Positions 26,152-64,000 of a DNA stretch of 64,000 nucleotides are shown here, piece after piece. A model generated the notes under the pieces. The model made no database searches. It was not told the DNA's origin and was given only the letters and a program-made list of their open reading frames with translations. A program made the translations under genes and the position numbers. Location: NCBI RefSeq assembly GCF_003234965.1, contig NZ_QKVK01000008.1, positions 62,001-126,000 of the forward strand, in the 5' to 3' direction. Position 1 is the stretch's first letter, and every line of letters begins with the position of its first letter. This DNA is from Aestuariivirga litoralis. Its GTDB lineage: Bacteria; Pseudomonadota; Alphaproteobacteria; Rhizobiales; Aestuariivirgaceae.

Positions 26152-26247
26152 CATTGACGGTCACCCCTTAGCCCGGGTCGCCTTGACCAGCGTTCACAAC
26201 GCTGTCAAAAAGCCCGCGGCTTGAGGCAAGGGGGTCCTGAGAATCAC

Positions 26248-27444
26248 ATGTCACGCAAGAATTACGTGTTCACCAGCGAGTCGGTCTCCGAAGGCCACCC
26301 GGACAAGGTTTGCGACCGGATTTCTGACGAGATCGTCGACCTGTTCTACCGCGAATCGCTGGAGCAGGGTTTCGATCCGTGGGCAGTGCGTGTGGCTTGC
26401 GAAACGCTGGCGACGACCAACTACGTGGTGATCGCGGGTGAAACCCGCGGTCCCGCGTCCGTCACCAAGGCCAAGATCGAGGCCGCGGCGAGGAAGGCCA
26501 TCAAGGACATCGGCTACGAGCAGTCCGGCTTCCATCACCAGGATGCCAAGGTCGTCATCCTCCTCCACAGCCAGTCGGCTGACATCGCGCAGGGTGTCGA
26601 TGCCGCCGGCGAGAAGAAGGAAGAGGGTGCGGGCGACCAGGGCATCATGTTCGGCTATGCCTGCGACGAAACACCGGAACTCATGCCGGCGCCGCTCTAC
26701 TACTCCCACAAGATCCTGAAGCTCCTCGCCGATGCCCGCCATTCCGGCAAGGAAAAGCATTTGGGCCCGGACGCCAAGAGCCAGGTCTCGGTCGTCTACA
26801 AGAACGGCAAGCCCGTCGCGGCCTCGCAGATCGTGGTGTCTCATCAGCATACGGACGAAAGCCTGACCTCCGCGCAGGTCCTGAAGATCGTGAAGCCCTA
26901 TGTGCAGAAGGCCCTGCCCAAGGGCTGGATCACCAAGGACACCGTCTGGCACGTCAACCCCACCGGCAAGTTCTTCATCGGTGGTCCCGACGGTGATTCA
27001 GGCCTCACCGGCCGCAAGATCATCGTCGACACCTACGGTGGTGCTGCCCCGCATGGCGGCGGCGCCTTCTCCGGCAAGGACCCGACCAAGGTCGACCGCT
27101 CGGCAGCCTATGCGGCGCGCTACCTCGCCAAGAACGTGGTGGCGGCGGGCCTTGCCAAGCGCTGCACCATCCAGCTGTCCTATGCCATCGGCGTGGCGCA
27201 GCCCCTCTCGGTCTATGTCGACACCCATGGCACCGGCAAGGTGCCGGAGGCCAAGATCGAAAAGGCGCTCACCAAGGTCATGGACCTTTCGCCCCGCGGC
27301 ATCCGCACGCATTTGAATCTCAACCGCCCGATCTACGCGCGCACGGCGGCCTATGGCCATTTCGGCCGCGCGCCCGAGAAGGACGGCGGCTTCTCCTGGG
27401 AGAAGACCGACCTCGTGAAGGCGCTCAAAGCCGCGGTGAAGTGA
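26248..27444 (+). CDS. metK: S-adenosylmethionine synthetase
   Basis: A 398-residue enzyme making SAM from ATP and methionine. It has [15 protein letters not shown] at the N-terminus, the [12 protein letters not shown] hexapeptide region, and [25 protein letters not shown] near the C-terminal third (read as two overlapping motifs). ATG 26248 gives the family start [13 protein letters not shown]. The 96-bp leader after the XRE gene has no SAM riboswitch that I can recognise. The stop overlaps the trmB GTG. Confidence 0.97.
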
Positions 27445-45801: not shown

Positions 45802-45876
45802 TGGGGCGTCGCCAAGCGGTAAGGCAGCGGATTTTGATTCCGCCATTCGGAGGTTCGATCCCTCCCGCCCCAGCCA
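45802..45876 (+). tRNA. tRNA-Gln (anticodon TTG), attachment site of the island
   Basis: An intact 75-nt tRNA. The acceptor is TGGGGCG with CGCCCCA, then discriminator G and an encoded CCA. The anticodon arm GCGGA-TTTTGAT-TCCGC reads Gln (TTG), and the T arm is GGAGGTTCGATCCCTCC. Its last bases, CAGCCA (45871-45876), recur at 46148, 46425, 50215 and 52757, so the 3' end is the inferred integration site. The tRNA itself remains complete. Confidence 0.95.
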
Positions 45877-46147
45877 ATATTATTTTCCTAGTCTGTGCTT
45901 TTTTGTGTTTTAACCGATGCGTGCGGAATGTCTCCGACATGTCCGGGGCTTGCGCGAGGAGCAGCGGTGACGCCGTATCCAGAGACCGCTTTAGAGGGGC
46001 TCGGAGGCGGTGATGTGTGCGGAAAGTCTCTGAGAGCCTGAAATCCGGTTATGACGCGAGCCGGACGACCATCGTCAGGTGACCTGTGTAGGATTAAATG
46101 ACAGTAAAGGCGATGCTAACAATCGCTCTTTCGATCCACATCAAAGG
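45871..46147. repeat. tRNA-Gln junction repeat, unit 1 (277 bp)
   Basis: The unit runs from CAGCCA at the tRNA end to the next CAGCCA. It contains a T-rich stretch after the junction, GCGTGCGGAATGTCTCCG (45919-45936), an inverted CAGAGAC (45980-45986), GTGTGCGGAAAGTCTCTG (46015-46032), CCGGTTATG, and ends AATCGC-N4-TTCGATCCACATCAAAGG. No coding potential is seen. It is about 93% identical to unit 2 by hand comparison (about 18 differences). Confidence 0.9.
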
Positions 46148-46424
46148 CAGCCAATATTATTTTCCTAGTCTGTGCTTTTTTATGTTTTTGCCGATGCATG
46201 CGGAATGTCTCCGACATGTCCGGGGCTTGCGCGATGAGCAGCGGTGATGCCGTATCCAGAGACCGCTTTAGAGGGGCTCGGAGGCGGTGATGTGTGCGGA
46301 AAGTCTCTGAGAGCCTGAAATCCGGTTATGACGCGAGCCGGACGACCATCGTCAGCTGATCTATATAGGAGTAAATATCAGAAAAGGTGACGCTAACAAT
46401 CGCACTTTCGATCCACTTCAAAGG
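46148..46424. repeat. tRNA-Gln junction repeat, unit 2 (277 bp)
   Basis: Exact tandem neighbour of unit 1, with the same 277-bp period and order of motifs. Differences cluster in the last 80 bases before TTCGATCCACTTCAAAGG. Like unit 1 it has no gene, so it looks like an element reduced to its two ends. Confidence 0.9.
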
Positions 46425-46604
46425 CAGCCATTAATTCCTACTAAAACTTATCTTCCTGAGCCGTAGAAAATGTCCCCGACATGTCGGGGGCTTGCGCTGA
46501 CAGAACCGTCCATGTCGTATCCAGAGACCGCTGAATTGGGGTGTGGCGGCGGTGATACCTGTGAAAAGTCTCTGTGTGCCGGAAATCCGGTTATGGCGCC
46601 ACGC
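46425..46604. repeat. tRNA-Gln junction repeat, diverged copy 3 (left end of HNH module)
   Basis: It starts with CAGCCA, then diverges but keeps the order of motifs: a perfect 16-bp palindrome centred on CCGACATGTCGG (46474-46489), CGTATCCAGAGACCGCT, a GGCGGTGAT block, GAAAAGTCTCTGTGTGCC and AAATCCGGTTATGGCG. It lacks a nearby right end; the next CAGCCA is 3.8 kb on, after cargo genes. Confidence 0.8.
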
Positions 46605-50134: not shown

Positions 50135-50197
50135 CGACTGACGTCTGGTGACCGAGTTATCGGACTTGGGGCCTAGCAGATCCCCACAATCGCAAAT

Positions 50198-50400
50198 TCG
50201 ATCAACATCAAAGTCAGCCAATATTTTTTTCCTAGGATGTGCTTTTTTATGTTGTTGCCGATGCGTGCGGAATGTCTCCGACATGTCCGGGGCTTGCGCG
50301 AGGAGCAGCGCTGACGCCGTATCCAGAGACCGCTTGAGAGGGGCTCGGAGGCGGTGATGTGTGCGGAAAGTCTCTGTGTGCCTGAATTCCGGTTATGGCA
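50198..50400. repeat. tRNA-Gln junction repeat, copy 4
   Basis: The right end of the HNH module (TTCGATCAACATCAAAGT then CAGCCA 50215-50220) joins a well-preserved left end, AATATT-T-run-CCTAGGATGTGC, GCGTGCGGAATGTCTCCG, ATCCAGAGACCGC and GTGTGCGGAAAGTCTCTG, ending CCGGTTATGGCA near 50400. It closely matches units 1 and 2. It divides the HNH module from the dehydrogenase module. Confidence 0.88.
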
Positions 50401-53010: not shown

Positions 53011-54705
53011 TCAGGCCAGCAGGAGGGCGCGCTGCTCTTCCCAGGAGGCGGGTAGCGGGCAGGCCTTCTTGAGCCGTTCCGGGGTAAGGGACATCGGCTG
53101 CATGCCGTCGACGATGGTCTCAACGATGTCTGGTGCGAGGAAGGCGAGACTTATCTTGAGGCTGATGTAGGAAGCCGAGACGCCCTCGGCCCTAGCAAGG
53201 GCGGCGATGGTCGGGACCTCCCCGGATGAGAGCGCATCAAACCACCGACGGGCTCTCAGGATTTCGGCGACGAGGCGGGGGTGGGGATCGGAATATGGCT
53301 GGTCCCCGGTTTCGTCAACCACCAGTCTTACCTGCTTCCCACACCGGAGGAGGTGGCCGGTGATGTCGATCACGAGGGGCAGACTATCCAGCGGCGACTG
53401 TGCGTCCTCGGGGAGTCGGCCGGTGAGGAGGGCGACAAGCTGATCCCTGTTGACCCTGAGATGTATGTTTCTCTTATCCATGGTGATACGGGTAACGAGG
53501 TCGCCGATCATTCCGGTGTTCATGATCGGCTGCCTCTCGATATCGACCGCAATGCCCTGTGCTTTTTCAAGTGCGGGCGGAAGGTCTCCGGGACCGGGTA
53601 CGAGCGCAGCAACCCATTGCCTTTTTCTCAGGTGGCCTGCCAATGAACGGATGACGATCATCTCGAGGTCAGGAGCGGGAACCCGAAACCCGCTCGTCGC
53701 CTGCTGCCTCCCCTCCTTCAGCAGCGATTTCGAAGTGTAGTACCGGTACTTCTTCCTCCCCTTGCTGCAATGGGTTGGCTGCAGCCGCTCGCCTTGAGCA
53801 TCGAACACCAGCCCCTTGAGCAGGGCAGGGGAGGACAGCTTGCGGCGCGCCTTGTCCCCGGGCCCCTGCTGTTCTAGGACTCGCTGGACATCCGAAAACA
53901 GCTTCTCCTCCACGATTGGCTCGTGCTCCCCGGGAAAACACTCACCCTTGTGTTGGATCAGGCCCCGGTAAATCGGGTTCTTCAGGATCGTATACAGGGC
54001 GCCCCGGGAGAAGCTAACACCACCCACCACCGAGCCATCCTGGAGGACCTTACGTTTCGATCGCCTCCCGGAGCTGGCCAGTTCCCTTCGCAGGAGCTGC
54101 ACGGATCGAAGCTCCAGGTAGCGGTCGAAGAGGTGACGGACGGTCTCGGCCTCCTCCGGAACGACGACCAGCTTTCTCGCCTTCACCTCATAGCCATGCG
54201 GTGGATGCCCTCCCATCCAAATGCCCCGCCGCTTGGAGGCGGCGATCTTGTCCCGGATACGCTCGCTGGCAACTTCCCGCTCGAACTGGGCAAAGGAGAG
54301 CAACACGTTGAGCGTCAGTCGACCCATTGAGGTCGACGTATTGAACTGCTGGGTGACCGCCACGAAGGACACGTTGTGCCGGTCCAGGACGTCCGTGAGC
54401 TTGGCGAAGTCTGCCAGGGACCTGGTGAGCCGGTCGATCTTGTAGACCACGATGATGTCGATCTCGCCCCTGGCGATGTCCTGCATCAGGCCCTCGAGCG
54501 CTGGCCGCTGGAGGTTGCCGCCTGAGAAGCCGCCATCGTCGTAGGCTTTTGGGACCAAGGTCCAGCCCTCATGCTTCTGGCTGGCGATGTAGGCCGTACA
54601 GGCATCCCGTTGGGCCGCAAGGGAGTTGTAGGCCTGATCCAACCCTTCCTCTGAGGACTTGCGGGTATAGATTGCGCAGCGGCGGATTGTGGGACAATCA
54701 GCCAT
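53011..54705 (-). CDS. Large serine recombinase
   Basis: A 564-residue serine recombinase. The N-terminal resolvase domain has YTRKSSEEG (nucleophile Ser17), YDDGGFSGGNLQRPAL and YKIDRLTRSLADF. The recombinase domain (about 160-290) is followed by a partial zinc-ribbon/coiled region and a C-terminal helix-turn-helix-like part (IAALARAEGVSASYISLKISLAFL). ATG 54705 overlaps the DUF2924 gene by 8 bp. It probably mobilises this module, but could be a resident resolvase; target sites are unproven. Confidence 0.93.
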   Translation of the reverse strand: MADCPTIRRCAIYTRKSSEEGLDQAYNSLAAQRDACTAYIASQKHEGWTLVPKAYDDGGFSGGNLQRPALEGLMQDIARGEIDIIVVYKIDRLTRSLADFAKLTDVLDRHNVSFVAVTQQFNTSTSMGRLTLNVLLSFAQFEREVASERIRDKIAASKRRGIWMGGHPPHGYEVKARKLVVVPEEAETVRHLFDRYLELRSVQLLRRELASSGRRSKRKVLQDGSVVGGVSFSRGALYTILKNPIYRGLIQHKGECFPGEHEPIVEEKLFSDVQRVLEQQGPGDKARRKLSSPALLKGLVFDAQGERLQPTHCSKGRKKYRYYTSKSLLKEGRQQATSGFRVPAPDLEMIVIRSLAGHLRKRQWVAALVPGPGDLPPALEKAQGIAVDIERQPIMNTGMIGDLVTRITMDKRNIHLRVNRDQLVALLTGRLPEDAQSPLDSLPLVIDITGHLLRCGKQVRLVVDETGDQPYSDPHPRLVAEILRARRWFDALSSGEVPTIAALARAEGVSASYISLKISLAFLAPDIVETIVDGMQPMSLTPERLKKACPLPASWEEQRALLLA

Positions 54706-55147
54706 TGGAAGTAGTCCTCTTCCGGTCCCTGGTGCCGAAGAAGCGGGGTCCGGACCAGCGCACTCCTGTGATCTCACGGGCAATCTCGCTCAGGGACCTC
54801 CACACCTTACCCCCGTAGGCAAACCGTCCGTCCTCCAGAGCTAGAACTTCATGAGCCTTGCCCTGCCACTCGCGCAGCAGCATAACCCCCGGCTTCAGAG
54901 GCAAGGTCTCACCACTTAGTTGTAAGCTTCCCCTGCCGCCACTGCGCAGTGCCCTCAGCCGGATGGAGGTCCGGCGGCTGAAGCCGCCGAACTCCTGTTC
55001 CTGTCTCCTGTAGGCGATGGCGAGCCGGAGCAGTTCCTTGCTCATCGCAGGCGGAGCATCATCGTCAGAAAGACGCTTCCACTCGACCCGCAGGCTCTTC
55101 AGATCCATCCCGGCTAGTTCTGCCAAGAGCTCTTCCGTCCTACTCAC
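54698..55147 (-). CDS. DUF2924 protein
   Basis: A 149-residue DUF2924 protein, a regular companion of large serine recombinases in alphaproteobacteria. LKSLRVEWKRLSDDDAPPAMSKELLRLAIAYR and YGGKVWRSLSEIAREITG with VRWSGPRFFG are the family landmarks. It probably binds DNA or assists recombination. It starts with GTG overlapping the DUF3489 stop by 4 bp, and overlaps the recombinase ATG by 8 bp. Confidence 0.85.
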   Translation of the reverse strand: MSRTEELLAELAGMDLKSLRVEWKRLSDDDAPPAMSKELLRLAIAYRRQEQEFGGFSRRTSIRLRALRSGGRGSLQLSGETLPLKPGVMLLREWQGKAHEVLALEDGRFAYGGKVWRSLSEIAREITGVRWSGPRFFGTRDRKRTTSNG

Positions 55148-55449
55148 GAGTTGGCAGCTTCGGTGAGCCGATAGCGGCGGCCACCCTGGCCTTTGGATGA
55201 ATCTAGTGTGAGACCCAGCTTTTTCTTCAATGTCCCCGAGAGGTATCCGCGCACGCTATGAGCCTGCCAGCCGGTAGCCCCTGAGAGTTCCGAGATAGTC
55301 GCTCCCTGCGGACGAGCTAGAAAGGCCTGAATGGTCTCGGACTTGCTCATTGGTGCGGGCGACAGCTTCTTGGCGGGCTGCTTCGAACGAGTACCGGGCG
55401 CTGAATTCTTGGTCTGCCTGGAGGTTAAGCCGGATTTCTTGATGGTCAT
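55144..55449 (-). CDS. DUF3489 small DNA-binding-like protein
   Basis: A 101-residue protein with a basic N-terminal half (Lys/Ser/Thr-rich) and a C-terminal winged-helix-like DUF3489 domain: TIQAFLARPQGATISELSGA, then TGWQAHSVRGYLSGTLKKKLGL, KGQGGRRYRLT. It probably regulates or assists the recombinase. ATG 55449 has AGGAGAA 7 bp upstream. It is the first gene of the DUF3489-DUF2924-recombinase operon. Confidence 0.85.
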   Translation of the reverse strand: MTIKKSGLTSRQTKNSAPGTRSKQPAKKLSPAPMSKSETIQAFLARPQGATISELSGATGWQAHSVRGYLSGTLKKKLGLTLDSSKGQGGRRYRLTEAANS

Positions 55450-55615
55450 GGTGGTTCTCCTGTTCCGGAGGCTTAAGCAGCCTCCCACCACCGCAAGCCC
55501 GCTCAGGGCGGGCTGTCGACGCCGTCAGTCAATCAGCTAGGCGTCGTGGCACAACAAATGCTTCCTTTCGGTAGGAAGTCGAGTGGAAATCTGTAAGGAA
55601 GAGAAGCCGTAACAT

Positions 55616-56178: not shown

Positions 56179-58251
56179 TTAGTCGAGCTCCACAATCATG
56201 GCTGCTCGTTTGGCGCGAGTGAGAGAGACATACATCAATCTACGCTGATTGATGGTCTTGTCTGGAGGCCCAAGATAATCCACTGGGGTCACGATTGCCA
56301 CAGCATCGAACTCCAATCCCTTGGCACGGTGCATTGTCGCAAGGTGAATTACGTTCTGGGCATCGGAGTGGTTAGATTGTGCATCAATGGTGATGCAGCG
56401 AAGCCCAGAGCGCTGTAACTCTGCTGCCAAAGCGTCTCGGATCTTTTCGCTGGGAGCGATCGTGCAGAAAGAGGCCCTCTGTCCATCGGCAGTAAACTCT
56501 GCGTGGAATTTCTTAATTTGCTCGGCTGCTTCCCGGACATCGCCGGCCTTTGCCACTGACGGAGCTGGGCCGTGTGATAAGGACTTATAGCGCCGATTTT
56601 CGTCGTGACCATCGTCCAGATCATCAATCTCACAACCCTCAAGCAATGCTACAGCGTGGCGGCGGATTTCGTCTGTCGTTCTGTAGTTGAGATATAGCTT
56701 TCGTGCTCTTCCGCGGATGTCTATTCCGCATTTTCCCATCGAGGCCCGGTTGCGACTATATATTCGTTGATGGCCGTCACCGACGAAGAACAAATCATTA
56801 CTTCCAGCCGCGATCATTGCCCGGAGAAGCTTGAGTGCTTGGGGGCCAAAGTCCTGTGTTTCGTCTATCACGATTGCGCAGAGCGGCGGCCGCGAAATTG
56901 GATCCGATGTCAGCATTTCGGCGATTTCGCGGTAGGCGTCATCTACCTCCTTGAGGTGCCGAGAGGCGAGCTGCCCTCGGTACTCTTCGAACACTGGCCA
57001 AATAGCGTCGCGACTTGCCCGATTCAGTGTTCCGGATCTGCCGACCCGGCGAGCCATGCGGTATTCGTCCAGGCTGGTGATGCCTTGCGCGAGGATCACT
57101 TGCTCTAGCTCACGCTCATAGAAGTCATCTGGAAGATCCAATGTCGTATTTCGTGAGGCAAGGGCGGACTCCCACGCCTGCTTTGCTGCATCTTGCTGAC
57201 GGTTGTAGACGATACGATGCTCGATTTTTCGTGCCCGCATAAATCCGTGGACCCATGCATCAAGGTTTTTCACCTCGATACGCGCCATGACCTGCGAATC
57301 ACACAAACTCTTCAAATTGCTCTCGATGTCTGCAGCAAGATTTCGGGTGAACGTTGTGAATAGGACCCGCTGACCGTCTGCACAGCGATTCTCGGCGAGC
57401 CATTTTGCCCGATGCATGGCTAGAACGGTCTTTCCCGTTCCTGCACCCCCAAGAATACGCACCGGTCCACTGCGATCCCCCGAGGCAAACTTGATCTGGG
57501 TTGGATGAAGAAAGATCCGCCACTGCGCTAGAGGTGCATTGAGAATGGCAGCCATGGCCTCGTCAGTATTGACCACGACAAACCGCGACTTCGATTCTGG
57601 TGTTTCGAGTGCCTTGGCAAAATCGAGAACATCCACCTCGCGGTCGACACGTGTCTCGCGGGCACTGAGAATCTGGCTGACAGTGTCGCCAGCGGCTAGC
57701 AAGAACAAACTCTCATACGCCTCAACCGGTAGATCCTTTTGGATGTTGTCCAAGTCATCTTCTGACGAGATGGTCCTAACGACCCCGATCAATTCCTCAG
57801 GCAGTCCCAAGCTGATTAGTTCACGGTCTGTTACTGCAGAGAATAGAGGAGCCGAAGCGTTCCAACTGGCGTCAAGATCCGCTGAAGGTGGCTGCACTGC
57901 GTGCGTGCTTAACTCAATGTTTATTAGCTGCATTGCACCCGTTACAGGGTTGACCGTCAGCTTCCGGTTCTCTGCCCAGCGATATGCCGCATCATGATGA
58001 TCGACATATAGCAGAACATAAAGGTCGCCATTATCTGGCTTGAACACAATCCCACGCCAGTCCTGGTCGATCCTTACAGACTTAAGCGATCGGTCTCTGG
58101 CTCCCTTTATGCTTTCGTAGTTGATACCAGGATTCCTTGGGTCTGCCTGGAATTTGACAGCCCACTTAAGGACCTTGCCCTGGATAGATAGAGGCAGGTC
58201 ACCAAGCTGTAGAATGAATTCCTGCGAAAGAGCGACCTTGGGCTTCAACAT
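56179..58251 (-). CDS. UvrD-like helicase with RelE/ParE-like N-terminal domain
   Basis: A 690-residue SF1 helicase. Residues 1-95 look like a RelE/ParE toxin fold (SIQGKVLKWAVKFQADP, SLKSVRIDQDWRGIVF, then VLLYVDHHDAAYRWAEN). The helicase has Walker A GGAGTGKTVLAMHRAKW (about 267), TTFTRNLAADI, the DEXX box IVIDETQDFG (about 460), VGDGHQRIYS, LNYRTTDEIRR and C-terminal ATMHRAKGLEFDAVAIV with YVSLTRAKRAAMIV. Its ATG overlaps the giant helicase stop by 7 bp, so the two act in one operon. It is probably a defence helicase. Confidence 0.88.
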   Translation of the reverse strand: MLKPKVALSQEFILQLGDLPLSIQGKVLKWAVKFQADPRNPGINYESIKGARDRSLKSVRIDQDWRGIVFKPDNGDLYVLLYVDHHDAAYRWAENRKLTVNPVTGAMQLINIELSTHAVQPPSADLDASWNASAPLFSAVTDRELISLGLPEELIGVVRTISSEDDLDNIQKDLPVEAYESLFLLAAGDTVSQILSARETRVDREVDVLDFAKALETPESKSRFVVVNTDEAMAAILNAPLAQWRIFLHPTQIKFASGDRSGPVRILGGAGTGKTVLAMHRAKWLAENRCADGQRVLFTTFTRNLAADIESNLKSLCDSQVMARIEVKNLDAWVHGFMRARKIEHRIVYNRQQDAAKQAWESALASRNTTLDLPDDFYERELEQVILAQGITSLDEYRMARRVGRSGTLNRASRDAIWPVFEEYRGQLASRHLKEVDDAYREIAEMLTSDPISRPPLCAIVIDETQDFGPQALKLLRAMIAAGSNDLFFVGDGHQRIYSRNRASMGKCGIDIRGRARKLYLNYRTTDEIRRHAVALLEGCEIDDLDDGHDENRRYKSLSHGPAPSVAKAGDVREAAEQIKKFHAEFTADGQRASFCTIAPSEKIRDALAAELQRSGLRCITIDAQSNHSDAQNVIHLATMHRAKGLEFDAVAIVTPVDYLGPPDKTINQRRLMYVSLTRAKRAAMIVELD

Positions 58252-61200
58252 GTTGCATCCTTCTGGCCAGCGCCTGAAACGCCTAGGGCTTTTGCGAGTG
58301 CTAATTCAATGGGGGTACCGTCCACGGTCTGATTTTCGTCTTGCATCTGAACGACCATCCAACCCTCGTCGGACCAAATCTTGGCCATATCATCCTGGTC
58401 AGACCTCAGCAGTACCAGCTTCTTCTCCGGCCATGCCGCTTCGCACTCTGCGACGATCGTACCGTCCGGCCCCGCCAACTCCATGCCAACCTCCGGCGGT
58501 CGCACAGCGTGCTTCTCAAGTTTTAATAATGCCGGCTTGAGAAAGGGTGCACAGGATTGTACTGCATCGCGCCACAACCCGGGCGGAACCATCTCACTTT
58601 GCTGATGTGATGCAAGTTCGGCGGCACCTTCAAACAGGCCGTAGTCACCCTCAACGAGACCCCGCTTGGTGGCCATCAGCATCCCGGGGAGGAACTGGAA
58701 GATATTGCAGGCTTGAAGCCATTGGCGCCACCTGAGGTGAAGTCCCTGCTCGCCATCGCCTGAGGATTCATCAAGTATAACGAATCCAGGAACCGGAGTT
58801 GCAGCAGATGGACCGGAGAGTAACGTGTGCGCCCACCACCCAACTACCGTAACAGGTGCTTCTGCAACAGATAAGAATGCCGTGTGATGTTTGCCCGAAT
58901 GTTTGAGCCACTCGGGGATCAAGGCCTTCCATGCGTTCATCTGCGCTTTTGCTGCCTCTTGATCCTCCGGTGTCGTCGGGAGCAGCCGCGTGACGAGCGA
59001 TGCTGCATTGCGCCGAAGCGAGCCTTCAGCCACGACGTCATTCTCAGGCGAGGCGAGATGATGGAGGAGCTGCGCAACTGCATTTTGGCTCAGCGGGTAG
59101 ACCTCACTTGGCTTGAACCAGGTGGCAGCTTTTAGCGAATCATGACGATTAAGCGTTGTTGCGGTAGAAGGCAGGTCGGTCTCAAAGCCTCCACCGATCG
59201 AGGTTGTGATGTCTTCGTGAGTGATAGACCATACGACGTATCTGGAACTTGCTAGTAATGCGCTGCGCTTGCGGGCGTCTTCCTGCAGAGTTGACTTATG
59301 GTAAGTCCATCCGTCGCAAAAAACCGCGACGGGTTTTCGGGTCGAGCTCTCGCTCCACGGCCAGATAATGAAGTCGGGCTTGCTCGGCACCGTGATGCCA
59401 TCACTACTGGCGAGATTTCTTTGAGGCTCTACACGATAACGGTTAGGCCCCACTTGAAGAATAAAACCGGATTTTCCGAAAACGATGTCCTGCAGCAAAG
59501 TGATTGGTGGCAGCTTGCCAATCCCGCTGAGTTTGCGAAGACACTCAATAAAGCGCGCTTCCAAAACAGAGTCGAAGTTGGGATTGATGTAGATTTGCGA
59601 GATGGTCTTTACACGCACTTTTGCATGCAGAGCTCCAGTGAGCTCTCGCAAAACGTCTTGGGCAATGCTGCGCGAGACTTCATCGAGGCTGCGGCCAATG
59701 CGATACTGGTATAGGCAGCGATAACATCCGTCCTTTTCCGGATCCTTGTTACAACTGCATGCATCTAGTGCCGCCAGTGACTCCTTGAAAACGCGGTCGA
59801 GCGCATCCGCCTCATGGGCAAGCAACTCATTCAGATAGCCTGTGCCGCCAGGGACTGAATCATACAGCAACACGAACTGTCGGCGAGGGCCATTGTCCTG
59901 CCCCGGTTCATCCTGAAGGGTCATGCGCAGGTGGTCCACCTTTCCACCGAAGCAGCGCTTCAGCCCCAACTGGATGGCCGCCATAAAAGACTGAATGACC
60001 TTTTCGTCCACGCCGTACTTGGTGAAGGGCACGAGAATGCGCAACGCTTCTGAGGTGAATTCCCTGTACAGGTACAAGCATTCGATCAGGGCGTCAGGAT
60101 TGTCTCTGCTTCGGTGTGGGCAGTCTAGGCTATGCTGCTCTTCAGCATGATATGACGACTGCACCTTGCCGCAATCGCGGCAGAGCTTAAAGCCCGGGCG
60201 AGGAGCTTCACGGTCCGCCACCTTGAACGTGTCGCCAGGATTGGATATCTCGCCAAAGTTGATGTCGCGGAATGTTACTCGAGCAAGAAACTCGAAGCCA
60301 AATGGCGGCATACCATCTGGAAGCTGCCACGCCTCCCGCACTGTGGACGGCTCGAAATTCGCAAGCAGTTGCCTTGTATAGAAGGCAGGCTCACGTTCCT
60401 CGGCTGCATCATCGATCCGTACTTGAGAATCGTCGCTGTTCGCTATCGCTTGGCGAAAGCGTAGAAGGGTGCGCTTCTGGGATACGTTACCCCAGAGGGC
60501 ATCGCTACATCGAGGGCAGGTGCCGTACTCATCGACAGAGATGCTGAGGTTTTGTACGTGCTGGCAGGCCGGACAGAACCTCCATTCTTCTGTGCTGGTC
60601 AGAGACATGTTGATCTGGTCGATCTCCACTTTTCTCTGATTTGCGTAGAAGCGGTTTTCCGGTGCGAATTCAGACAAGGCGGAATTGGCCGGTCGCTCAT
60701 ACTTCAGCGTCTCAAGCGTCACGTATTTTCCCGGGCCCGTGTCATCGTCACCCTTTCGCCTCCACAGCACTGATTTGAGTTCGATACCGGCTTCGGGGAA
60801 TGCATAATTCGGAATGAGACCCGCATCTGTCAGTGTGTTGAGCAGGTCGCGGGTGTTTATCTCCTTGACCAGCTCAAGGATCTTATTCTTCTCGCTAATC
60901 AGCTCTGCGATGGTGTTCTGGGTGGCTTGGTCTTGCGGACCTTGCTCTGCCTTGATGCGTTGCCGATCAACCTCTTCTTTACGCTCACGCCAGACCTTTC
61001 GTTCCCTGACCAGGTCCTGCAGTGTTTTCATCAGGCGGATTTTCAATCCGTCATCCTCGCCTTGGCCTTCGATGAAGTCTCGAAGGCGGTCGATTACGAC
61101 CTTGTCCGCATCCGACCCAAGGAGGCTGACAAATCCGTCGAATAACCGAACCTGATTTGTGACTACGTGATCGAGAAAGACGTAAGGGAAGCGATCTATC

Positions 61201-64000
61201 TTTACCTGTTCAACTGCGTCCAGCGCGGGCGAGGTCTTGTCCGGCAGGACTGCCAGGTTCTTCAGACCGGCAACCCAGTCATCCATGCAGAACGCAAAGA
61301 GCTGACGACGGAGCACTTCCACAGCCTTGAGAAAGACGCCTAGTGCTTCGACCGGACCTGCGATCATCTCTTCGGTTTCGGCGAAAAAATAGAGGTCATG
61401 AGGGCTATTGCCATCCGCCAGTGTTGTCGTCATTGCATTTCCGTCGCGGCGGCCAGCTCGGCCGATACGCTGCAGAAAGCTGGCCTGGTTTGGCGGGACG
61501 GAACACAGAAGGACGGATGACAGATCACCGATGTCCACGCCCATCTCGAGAGTAGGGGTGGCCGAGAGGAGGTTCTCGTACCACGGCTGTGGCTTCTTTG
61601 CCTTGAAGCGCGCTTCGAGTGCCTCACGTTCGGGCCGTGGCAGGAGGCCTGTGTGCTCGGCTGCGATAACGCGCTTCAGATCTCCGCGACTGAACCTGTC
61701 CGACCACCAGCCGGCCGCGTCCGGGATCGTCTCGACATAGGGCGATCTCAGATCCTCCAGGCTCGGCATCCCCAAGAGAGGCTCCGCCTCGTTTCGCGGC
61801 ACCGCCAGCCGTCGTGTATTGCCGCGTGTGGTGACAAAGGCCAGATCGGTGCGGAGTACCAGCGCTTCGCCGGATAGGCCAAGGTTGGTTCCAGATAGTT
61901 CAAGGACGCCATCTTCCTGCAGCGCCTTCAGGGCGATGCTGTACATATCCGCAAGCAGGCTGTTGTTGAGGAGCACTTTGGACTCAAAACACGCGAAGCC
62001 CCATTTCTCGTACCAACTCCTGGCGGCGCCGGTTCCACGGAGCTTGTCGAAACGGCCTTGGTTCGTTGCGCTTAGAAAGACAGGGCGAGGGCCACCCTTG
62101 GCCATCCGGGGCATCCATTCGCCCCGCCCACCGAGACTTATCAATTTGAAGTGGTTCTCGTCCTGGGCGTACTCGATCAACATTGGATGCATGACGCCGC
62201 CGCGTTGCCGCATGTGGGTGAGCATACCCCAGAGCCACTGGGAGATCTGCTTGCCGGACAACTCCCGTATACCGAGGCGCTCGCCGAACACCGGCAGAAG
62301 GTTCGCGGTCACGCGTTCGACGCGCTCCCAGGGAACGGTCAGCACGGCCTTGCCGATACGTTCTAGGGAGCGGCCGCGCTGGCTCTGATAGGTGAGGTCG
62401 GAGAACAGCTGCCAGAGCAGGCGTTTCTTGACCTTGTCGGGCAGACGCGAGCCGGCTGGCAGCGCCTCGTTTGTGCGGAGCTCGCTCCAGCCGCGCTGCC
62501 AGGTCATGTCGGGTGCCAGGAACTCGGCGACGAGTGTTTCCTTCGGCATGCACAGGACGGAACCGGCCGAGGTGAACTGCGCTTCGGCCAGTTCCAGCAC
62601 CTTGCTCCAGTTCTTTCCCGAAGCGCCCATCATATCGAGGCTTTGAACCCATGCGGTACGGACGTTGTTCTGCCAGGTGCGCGCGCCGAAGAAGCCAGCC
62701 CGGTGAGCGGCGTCCTGAACGGAATCGGAGAACGCGATGAGCTTCTTGTCGTCATTGAAAAGGCTTGCCCAGGAGGCATCGATGACCTGCGCGCCGAGCG
62801 TGGCGTTGCGTGCGCCGAGCAGGATCAGTGCCCCATGCGCACCACAGCTGGGACAAGTGTCGTCATGGCGGGTGATGTTGGCGCCTTGGCGTTGAATTTG
62901 CCTTGAGCCAGTGGCGAGGAACACACCCAACAGCTCGCGCTGGCCGCATCCGCCGCAGATGTCGGCCCCGTTTTGCAACGTCCCGCAGGACGTGCAGAGC
63001 TGCTTGCGGATGCCGTCAGCGTGGTCCCCAGTCTCGCTTTCGAGGGCATAGATGCGCACGGCTTCCGGATCCTGGCGGAACCAGGCTTCGTAGATCTTGT
63101 CGAGTTCGGAAGAAAGTTTCGGATGTGCCGGGGGTCGGCGCGAGAGCCAACCCGTCGTGCGGCACTGGTTGCATTGAAGGAGCGGAAGATAGACGCCGCC
63201 TCTGTCGGCCGGAAGATCGCGCTCGGGTACCAGCCGCAGCTCGGCAGAGTTCCTGACGACCTTGCTGACCATGCGCCTCAGCTCGCGGACCCATAGCTGC
63301 ATGCGCAAGGTGACGAGCGGCAGATTGTTCTCGCGGAGTGCCCATGCGACGAGGACGAGCAGGGCGTCGAGCACCTTCTCCACCTCCTGCGGCGTGGCCG
63401 TGGGCATACTGCGGGCGAAGGACTGCTTGAGGTCGGAATAGGGCACTACTCCGCTACGCAAGAGCTTCAGCAGGTTGACGAAAAGTTGGTGCTGCTTCAG
63501 CCGCTCGCCGAGGCTGCGTCGCCACGCCCGGTCCTTCACGTCCGCTGGCGCGGCCTCGCCATTGAAGAAAAGGGGATACCATGCCTGCACTGCTGCCTCG
63601 GGGCTGGCATAGGCATCGGGCGACAGGACTGGCACTAGGGCAGGCTGGAAGAGGAACATGTATTCGACGGTCGCTTCGTCGAGGAAGGAGGCGACCGACC
63701 GTCGGTTCTCCATGATAACCGAATCCGTGTCGAAAGCAGTGCTGAAGATCTGGCGGGCGTAGTCACGCAGTGCGGTGGTATCGTTACCGTGACCGAGCGT
63801 AGCCGAGGTGCCGGCGCAGATCAGATGGTCCTCAGGAATCTTTAGACGGGCGCGGAGGCGCCTCAAGAGAAGTGCGAGATCGGTTCCCTGGGCACCGTCA
63901 AAGGTGTGGAGCTCATCGACCACAACGTAGCGCAGTGTCTCGGGGCCGTTAGACTCCCACAGCTGCCGGTCTTTCGGGCGCAGCATGAGGTAGTCGAGCA
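58245..64000 (-). CDS. Giant DEAH/DUF1998 helicase with nuclease-like C-terminal region, N-terminus outside window
   Basis: At least 1917 codons; the frame is open to the right edge, so the N-terminus with Walker A is missing. The visible part has a DELH box (VVVDELHTFDGAQG, near the edge), SAT motif CAGTSATLGHG and QRIGRAGRR (about visible residue 841). Several Cys4 zinc clusters and a DUF1998-type Cys cluster (CSCNKDPEKDGCYRC, about 1411-1425) follow. The C-terminal stretch (PDFIIWPW, then VAVFCDGWTYHKST and EDARKRSALLASSRY, about 1541-1580) resembles a Vsr/DUF559-like nuclease. The architecture matches DruE-type phage-defence helicases. Confidence 0.88.
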   Translation of the reverse strand, partial: LDYLMLRPKDRQLWESNGPETLRYVVVDELHTFDGAQGTDLALLLRRLRARLKIPEDHLICAGTSATLGHGNDTTALRDYARQIFSTAFDTDSVIMENRRSVASFLDEATVEYMFLFQPALVPVLSPDAYASPEAAVQAWYPLFFNGEAAPADVKDRAWRRSLGERLKQHQLFVNLLKLLRSGVVPYSDLKQSFARSMPTATPQEVEKVLDALLVLVAWALRENNLPLVTLRMQLWVRELRRMVSKVVRNSAELRLVPERDLPADRGGVYLPLLQCNQCRTTGWLSRRPPAHPKLSSELDKIYEAWFRQDPEAVRIYALESETGDHADGIRKQLCTSCGTLQNGADICGGCGQRELLGVFLATGSRQIQRQGANITRHDDTCPSCGAHGALILLGARNATLGAQVIDASWASLFNDDKKLIAFSDSVQDAAHRAGFFGARTWQNNVRTAWVQSLDMMGASGKNWSKVLELAEAQFTSAGSVLCMPKETLVAEFLAPDMTWQRGWSELRTNEALPAGSRLPDKVKKRLLWQLFSDLTYQSQRGRSLERIGKAVLTVPWERVERVTANLLPVFGERLGIRELSGKQISQWLWGMLTHMRQRGGVMHPMLIEYAQDENHFKLISLGGRGEWMPRMAKGGPRPVFLSATNQGRFDKLRGTGAARSWYEKWGFACFESKVLLNNSLLADMYSIALKALQEDGVLELSGTNLGLSGEALVLRTDLAFVTTRGNTRRLAVPRNEAEPLLGMPSLEDLRSPYVETIPDAAGWWSDRFSRGDLKRVIAAEHTGLLPRPEREALEARFKAKKPQPWYENLLSATPTLEMGVDIGDLSSVLLCSVPPNQASFLQRIGRAGRRDGNAMTTTLADGNSPHDLYFFAETEEMIAGPVEALGVFLKAVEVLRRQLFAFCMDDWVAGLKNLAVLPDKTSPALDAVEQVKIDRFPYVFLDHVVTNQVRLFDGFVSLLGSDADKVVIDRLRDFIEGQGEDDGLKIRLMKTLQDLVRERKVWRERKEEVDRQRIKAEQGPQDQATQNTIAELISEKNKILELVKEINTRDLLNTLTDAGLIPNYAFPEAGIELKSVLWRRKGDDDTGPGKYVTLETLKYERPANSALSEFAPENRFYANQRKVEIDQINMSLTSTEEWRFCPACQHVQNLSISVDEYGTCPRCSDALWGNVSQKRTLLRFRQAIANSDDSQVRIDDAAEEREPAFYTRQLLANFEPSTVREAWQLPDGMPPFGFEFLARVTFRDINFGEISNPGDTFKVADREAPRPGFKLCRDCGKVQSSYHAEEQHSLDCPHRSRDNPDALIECLYLYREFTSEALRILVPFTKYGVDEKVIQSFMAAIQLGLKRCFGGKVDHLRMTLQDEPGQDNGPRRQFVLLYDSVPGGTGYLNELLAHEADALDRVFKESLAALDACSCNKDPEKDGCYRCLYQYRIGRSLDEVSRSIAQDVLRELTGALHAKVRVKTISQIYINPNFDSVLEARFIECLRKLSGIGKLPPITLLQDIVFGKSGFILQVGPNRYRVEPQRNLASSDGITVPSKPDFIIWPWSESSTRKPVAVFCDGWTYHKSTLQEDARKRSALLASSRYVVWSITHEDITTSIGGGFETDLPSTATTLNRHDSLKAATWFKPSEVYPLSQNAVAQLLHHLASPENDVVAEGSLRRNAASLVTRLLPTTPEDQEAAKAQMNAWKALIPEWLKHSGKHHTAFLSVAEAPVTVVGWWAHTLLSGPSAATPVPGFVILDESSGDGEQGLHLRWRQWLQACNIFQFLPGMLMATKRGLVEGDYGLFEGAAELASHQQSEMVPPGLWRDAVQSCAPFLKPALLKLEKHAVRPPEVGMELAGPDGTIVAECEAAWPEKKLVLLRSDQDDMAKIWSDEGWMVVQMQDENQTVDGTPIELALAKALGVSGAGQKDATC

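Follow-up and report, generated by a model that had tools for sequence, protein, structure and literature searches.

Genes and domains of the operon

We analysed a stretch of DNA of 64,000 nucleotides (the window), which corresponds to C25:62001-126000 of a 4.23-Mb genome, and read the contig on both sides of it. At the right end of the window lies part of an operon of four genes in the order armA-armB-armC-armD, all on the minus strand and all with intact reading frames (Table 1). An earlier note, made from the letters of the window, had described a giant open reading frame overlapping by 7 bp an ORF for a UvrD-like helicase. Both are present as described: the former is seen in the window as 58245-63998, open at the edge, the latter encodes 690 aa, and the overlap occupies 58245-58251. 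Reading to the right of the window for the N-terminus and for partner genes, as the note had advised, recovered armB, armA and the first 204 residues of ArmC, which are encoded in the 610 bases of armC beyond the edge. The note had also regarded the two genes as a pair that matched no named system, with no methylase visible; this part is not supported, as a methyltransferase and an SNF2 helicase are encoded upstream, and the four genes together are those of ARMADA Type II (PMC12458937). The gap between armB and armC is 20 bp, and armA overlaps armB by 4 bp. The listed start of armA, a TTG, is uncertain; an ATG lies 22 codons further in.

Table 1. Features of the arm operon (window positions, unless given for C25 and L002)
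Feature	Coordinates	Strand	Protein or residues	Basis or remark
armA	C25:131697-134711 (L002:11697-14711)	minus	1004 aa	outside window; DrmD/BrxHII-like SNF2 helicase
armB	C25:126631-131700 (L002:6631-11700)	minus	1689 aa	outside window; PglX/DrmMI-like methyltransferase
armC, window part	58245..64000	minus	full protein 2121 aa (L002:245-6610)	YprA-like helicase
armD	56179..58251	minus	690 aa	RelE-UvrD fusion helicase; final operon gene
ArmC RecA1, in-window part	63693..64000	minus	PF00270 match as a whole: aa 77-273	PF00270 and conservation
ArmC RecA1 motifs			motif II DELH aa 232-235; SAT aa 269-271	Walker A just beyond window
ArmC zinc-binding CxxC pairs	62844..63173	minus	aa 480-589	inserted ahead of RecA2
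ArmC Helicase_C/RecA2	61446..61670	minus	aa 981-1055	PF00271; QRIGRAGR motif
ArmC OB/CON zinc cluster 1	60507..60575	minus	C1346, C1349, C1365, C1368	invariant in 46
ArmC OB/CON zinc cluster 2	60120..60182	minus	C1477, C1480, H1493, C1497	invariant in 46
ArmC DUF1998/MZB zinc domain	59712..59984	minus	aa 1543-1633	PF09369 E 2e-11; C1618, C1620, C1629, C1632 invariant
ArmC Vsr-like PD-(D/E)XK nuclease (putative)	59121..59573	minus	aa 1680-1830	conservation; profile match sub-threshold
ArmC C-terminal tail domain	58311..58547	minus	aa 2022-2100	HMM from ArmC tails; PADLOC ZorE2 model
ArmD RelE-fold domain	57916..58251	minus	aa 1-112	AlphaFold, Foldseek, conservation
ArmD UvrD/GajB-like SF1 helicase part	56182..57489	minus	~aa 255-690	PF00580, PF13361, PADLOC GajB and NERD+UvrD models

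ArmC matches the Pfam families DEAD/DEAH (E 1.6e-21) and Helicase_C (1.2e-9), as well as the MrfA Zn-binding domain MZB (DUF1998), which bears out the DUF1998-type cluster that had been read from the window. The note had reported DEAH helicase motifs; motif II itself is DELH, not DEAH. Among the zinc-binding pairs ahead of RecA2, C480, C483, C586 and C589 are invariant in 46 homologues, and C539, C542, C552 and C555 are kept in 42 of the 46. Judged from sequence, ArmC has two zinc-bearing OB/CON insertions (C1346-C1368 and C1477-C1497), the number typical of ARMADA Type II, whereas ARMADA Type I has one.

Conservation of the ArmC-ArmD pair

A scan of genome contigs for ArmD yielded 68 loci, of which 58 kept the start of ArmD intact and had 1 kb or more of upstream sequence. 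ArmC lies directly upstream of ArmD on the same strand, ending within 1.3 kb, in 57 of these 58 informative loci; the pairing is not due to chance, and the functional pair proposed from the short overlap is in fact conserved as neighbours. The single exception, Vibrio albus, has ArmD without ArmC, and no ArmB was found in this genome. The order in this locus (L052:3076-12139) is zorA-zorB-zorE with the ArmC-type tail, a tail-like ORF of 107 aa, a tailed 1613-aa HATPase/DUF3883-like protein and ArmD, from which it seems that ArmD can work with a different partner. At the armB-armC junction, extra unrelated genes are frequent in other genomes and take up from <1 to >5 kb (L005, L011, L015, L017, L020, L023, L034 and others).

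In a quick tree of ArmC, sampled without ARMADA Type I sequences and with long branches towards DruE, the protein from the window groups with homologues that are linked to ArmD, among them those of Burkholderiales and Acetobacterales. The ArmC of E. coli ATCC 8739 falls inside the wider clade, which excludes DruE I and DruE III, and helicases of ~820-900 aa from relatives form a separate branch. The nearest relatives of ArmC are those of Caenimonas and Belnapia, with 61% identity at best.

Assignment to ARMADA Type II and alternative readings

ARMADA Type II consists, in strict order, of a BrxHII-like helicase, a PglX-like methyltransferase, a YprA-like helicase and a RelE-GajB-like helicase (Bell et al. 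2025, PMC12458937). The E. coli system protects against phage without killing cells, and this defence requires all four genes (2025 preprint, PMC12458937), as well as the motor and NPPW motifs (PMC12458937). The present operon has the same four-gene order as E. coli NCTC 12900 and ATCC 8739, including a GajB-like helicase with an N-terminal RelE-like domain directly after armC, as this order requires, and it has the same BrxHII-like, PglX-like, YprA-DUF1998-Vsr and RelE-UvrD domains, the Vsr part being putative. Identity lies in the range of 38-49%; end to end, ArmA, ArmB, ArmC and ArmD are 48.8, 47.6, 37.8 and 42.8% identical to those of ATCC 8739. Eight residues were tested in the published ArmA-D mutants (PMC12458937), and all eight are kept here: K157 and D257 in ArmA, G628 and N1028 in ArmB, K104 and D232 in ArmC, and K274 and D463 in ArmD, the last two being the Walker A and Walker B residues conserved with respect to ATCC 8739. 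The differences are that the host group is another one, that the C-terminus of the present ArmC has diverged, and that, unlike in E. coli, Zorya II and Druantia III are absent from beside the operon, whereas the same island has Mza, ShosTA-like and DrmAB genes. The four genes are also found together on plasmids, in Nostoc, Microvirga and Haematobacter, and in Tsukamurella with a split armC.

Profile searches gave mixed names of DISARM, Druantia and Gabija components, because PADLOC-DB, in its 2023 version, lacks a model for ARMADA. ArmA was identified as DrmD/BrxHII-like (PADLOC 1e-99; NF038317 2e-106), ArmB as Type IIG and DrmMI methyltransferase (PADLOC 7e-221 and 4e-49), and, by PADLOC/NCBIfam profiles, ArmC as DruE (4e-101) and ArmD as NERD+UvrD/GajB (2e-30). 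These matches agree with the relatedness to DruE and DISARM that the earlier note had stated, and they are also what would favour reading the operon as a DISARM or Druantia system. The resemblance to class 1 DISARM lies in the DrmD-like SNF2 helicase and the DrmMI-like methyltransferase; however, the match of ArmA to NF038317 (DrmD), at 357 bits, is below the curated cutoff of 610. In DISARM, moreover, the helicase (DrmA) is encoded apart from the DUF1998 part (DrmB) and DrmC is a PLD nuclease, whereas here MZB is inside a 2121-aa fused helicase, and neither DrmC nor any other PLD gene was found among the four operon genes. A separate DrmA-DrmB pair lies ~48-56 kb from the operon in the same island. 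As for Druantia III, DruE is a YprA-family helicase with DUF1998, most of its zinc clusters align with those of ArmC, and the solved structure closest to ArmC is 9tu7, a DEAD/DEAH helicase of 2108 aa, which we take to be DruE. However, the tree separates ArmC from DruE I and DruE III, the operon is without DruH and DruA, and DruE III has lost part of the Vsr-like site and carries PLD nucleases (PMC12458937). The similarity to Gabija is confined to the UvrD-family helicase of ArmD, which differs from GajB in the RelE domain fused at its N-terminus and in the absence of a GajA partner. We regard a DISARM or Druantia system as very unlikely.

The reading that the two helicases act alone, as a new defence system of two genes, would fit the observation that ArmC and ArmD are the tightest pair (57/58 loci), and that in other genomes further genes often come between ArmB and ArmC. 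Yet armA and armB lie directly upstream here, and of 18 genomes with ArmC that were inspected, 16 also have ArmB, the two exceptions being metagenome assemblies that may be incomplete. This reading was rejected when the upstream sequence revealed armA and armB, and we consider it very unlikely. Equally to be weighed is a set of DNA-repair helicases (MrfA-like or ligase-associated) with no role in defence, the housekeeping reading that the note had named as one that would refute its proposal and to which the MZB/DUF1998 domain shared by ArmC and MrfA lends some colour. The tree places ArmC with ArmD-linked defence helicases and not with the short helicases of the relatives; ArmC and ArmD were not found in 36 other genomes of the same genus at the thresholds used, apart from one weak partial match to the helicase core of ArmC; and many other defence genes lie in the island. 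Given the island context and the tree, we rejected this reading too, and its chance appears minute.

We therefore conclude, with a probability of roughly 0.88, that the locus is a complete and apparently intact ARMADA Type II operon, carried by an acquired defence island at tRNA-Gln, and we propose that it acts directly on phage DNA. The suggestion of a defence system in an island setting, made from the window, is borne out by the match to ARMADA Type II and by the other defence genes of the island. Membership, intact genes and conserved catalytic sites are what the present analysis establishes. ARMADA Type II has already been named and tested with phage; the present locus adds a member, with all four genes intact, from a different bacterium and so widens the range of hosts known for the family.

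Putative nuclease and RNase sites

The Vsr-like nuclease region that had been noticed in the window is supported by its residues and not by its profile: E1684, D1746, D1766, H1771, D1778 and R1782 show no variation among 46 ArmC proteins, whereas the Vsr-like profile PF18741 matches ArmC at a sub-threshold E of 0.017 (11 of 33 homologues match, the best at 0.0037). A Foldseek search with the C-terminal 482 aa of ArmC gave no significant match, probably because several domains were searched together. Against the Vsr gene of the island itself, the C-terminus gave a weak match in which the PD...DG/HG...H motif stretch was aligned. In DruE III, four of the seven aligned Vsr-like positions are replaced (E1684, H1771, D1778 and R1782), as expected for an active site that belongs to ARMADA and is absent from Druantia III. 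A C-terminal Vsr-type nuclease, predicted to be active, is a feature of ARMADA Type II; in the present ArmC its residues are invariant, whereas the profile and Foldseek matches are non-significant. The C-terminus of ArmC has been called an inactivated Vsr (PMC12458937).

The toxin-like N-terminus ascribed to the UvrD helicase is supported by structure prediction. The N-terminal 125 aa of ArmD are predicted to adopt a RelE fold (AlphaFold pLDDT 91), with the archaeal RelE 1wmi as the best Foldseek match (E 2.8e-5) and the toxins YoeB and YafQ as further structural neighbours; the remainder is UvrD (Pfam E 9.6e-20). R60, R66 and H86 of ArmD are invariant, and E46 is kept in 59 of 60 homologues. 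The catalytic residues of E. coli YoeB are E46, R65 and H83, to which those of ArmD presumably correspond by position and order. The comparison of the ArmD RelE domain with YoeB by hhalign was weak, though the E...R...R stretch was aligned; since this direct profile comparison is weak, the assignment rests on the fold match. A RelE-profile match to a Legionella protein was also weak by sequence and was set aside as spurious.

Because their residues are near-invariant, the Vsr-like site of ArmC and the YoeB-like site of the ArmD RelE domain are both probably active. Neither site is among the mutants in the main text of PMC12458937, and the homologue set points to a small number of residues, unchanged across broad phyla, as targets for mutating them.

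Proposed mode of action

Representing the defence as a barrier at the DNA level, i.e., as direct action on incoming phage DNA rather than suicide of the cell, we propose the following three steps, in which the division of labour among ArmA-D, as well as the nuclease and RNase activities, is what we infer: (i) ArmB, a PglX-like methyltransferase, and ArmA, a RapA/BrxHII-like translocase, would inspect DNA and separate self from phage; (ii) ArmC would load on single-stranded or replicating phage DNA, translocate by means of its YprA/DUF1998 helicase and cut with the Vsr-like nuclease; (iii) ArmD would serve as a second motor, while its RelE RNase head might clear or cut transcripts, or RNA:DNA hybrids, that are exposed at this site. 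Mutation of the NPPW motif of ArmB abolishes protection (PMC12458937), which shows that ArmB is needed for attack, and not merely for marking self. The loading and cutting by ArmC are made plausible by findings on the related DruE of Druantia III, which loads on 3' single-stranded DNA and turns into a nuclease upon assembly (2026 preprint, PMC13192584).

The C-terminal tail of ArmC

An HMM built from ArmC tails alone, with E-values that refer to a small ORF database, matches the C-terminus of ZorE in ATCC 8739 (E 3.8e-7) and in Vibrio albus (2e-14). It also matches the C-termini of two proteins whose HATPase/DUF3883 label is our reading of the sequences: the one of 1613 aa (5.7e-10) that immediately precedes the ArmC-less ArmD of Vibrio albus, and a similar one (2.9e-8) encoded upstream of the Colwellia ArmC. 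In 10 of the 399 genomes of the phylum the tail is present, seven times on ArmC and three times on ZorE. ArmD is adjacent in all six tailed-ArmC cases besides the present locus, and no ArmD, DruE or DruH was found within ~20-37 kb around ZorE in the three tailed-ZorE genomes. The tail therefore does not depend on ArmD, and docking of the tail to ArmD, which we had considered, is unsupported for ZorE, where the tailed loci have no ArmD nearby.

At the level of these profile matches, the tail of ArmC is homologous to the "nuclease-like" C-terminal extension of ZorE. Among Druantia-associated ZorE proteins, 53 of 59 carry at the C-terminus a nuclease-like region for which no family assignment was possible (PMC13192584), and the homology joins this remark with that on the inactivated Vsr (PMC12458937); we came across no mention of it in the main text of the two papers. 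We speculate, as a tentative idea that is rather less than probable, that the tail of ~75 residues may be a transferable module common to defence nucleases that are otherwise unrelated (ArmC, the ZorE of Zorya II and the DUF3883-like ATPase beside ArmD), coupling these systems to one common partner or target. If so, the shared tail could underlie part of the synergy reported for the Zorya-Druantia-ARMADA array. The tail homology and the list of residues are the parts worth following.

The defence island

Between C25:108 kb and 199 kb, the GC content drops from ~0.66 to 0.53-0.61. In two relatives (G028 and G031), a homologue of the sequence at C25:209.2 kb follows tRNA-Gln at a distance of no more than ~20 bases, and in a third (G001), sequence homologous to C25:207.6 kb begins ~0.9 kb after tRNA-Gln. 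These flanks indicate an insertion of ~90-100 kb behind tRNA-Gln in the present genome, the right end being approximate; no clean att repeat was found.

Besides the arm operon, the island carries MzaB-E with a C5 methyltransferase, Vsr, ShosTA-like genes, DrmA-DrmB with two UvrD-type helicases, and PDC-M61A. Outside the window, the ShosTA-like genes (the ShosT part being fused to a HAD domain), Vsr, the C5 methyltransferase and MzaB-E form one block at C25:140167-151842. At C25:167525-176617, also outside the window, are DrmA (1052 aa), DrmB (606 aa), a NERD-UvrD-like helicase and a GajB-like helicase, with no DrmC recognised in this set, which is possibly a DISARM variant.

A second, divergent S-adenosylmethionine synthetase is encoded in the island, outside the window, at C25:137454-138611 (L002:17454-18611), near two methyltransferases, and is 52% identical to the other copy of the genome (window 26242-27372); it could make up for SAM that phage enzymes destroy. 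A gene for an SNF2-SWIM helicase is present in the island in two copies (C25:134912-136897 and 182873-184857) with 82% DNA identity, and nowhere else in the genus. Roles in ARMADA for metK and for the neighbouring SNF2 gene were considered and dropped, as neither recurs in the ArmD loci, which extend no more than ~10 kb ahead of armD and rarely beyond armB.

A serine recombinase with DUF2924 is found at both ends of the island (window 53011-55491, where DUF3489 is also present, and C25:191661-193875). The recombinase at 53011-54783 does not recur in the ArmD loci; a similar one follows tRNA-Gln in another relative (G034). Direct repeats of ~180-450 bp (window 45871-46599 and 50186-50397) are located directly after tRNA-Gln and again 4 kb further on. 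Between them lies a small block that contains an HNH-like gene.
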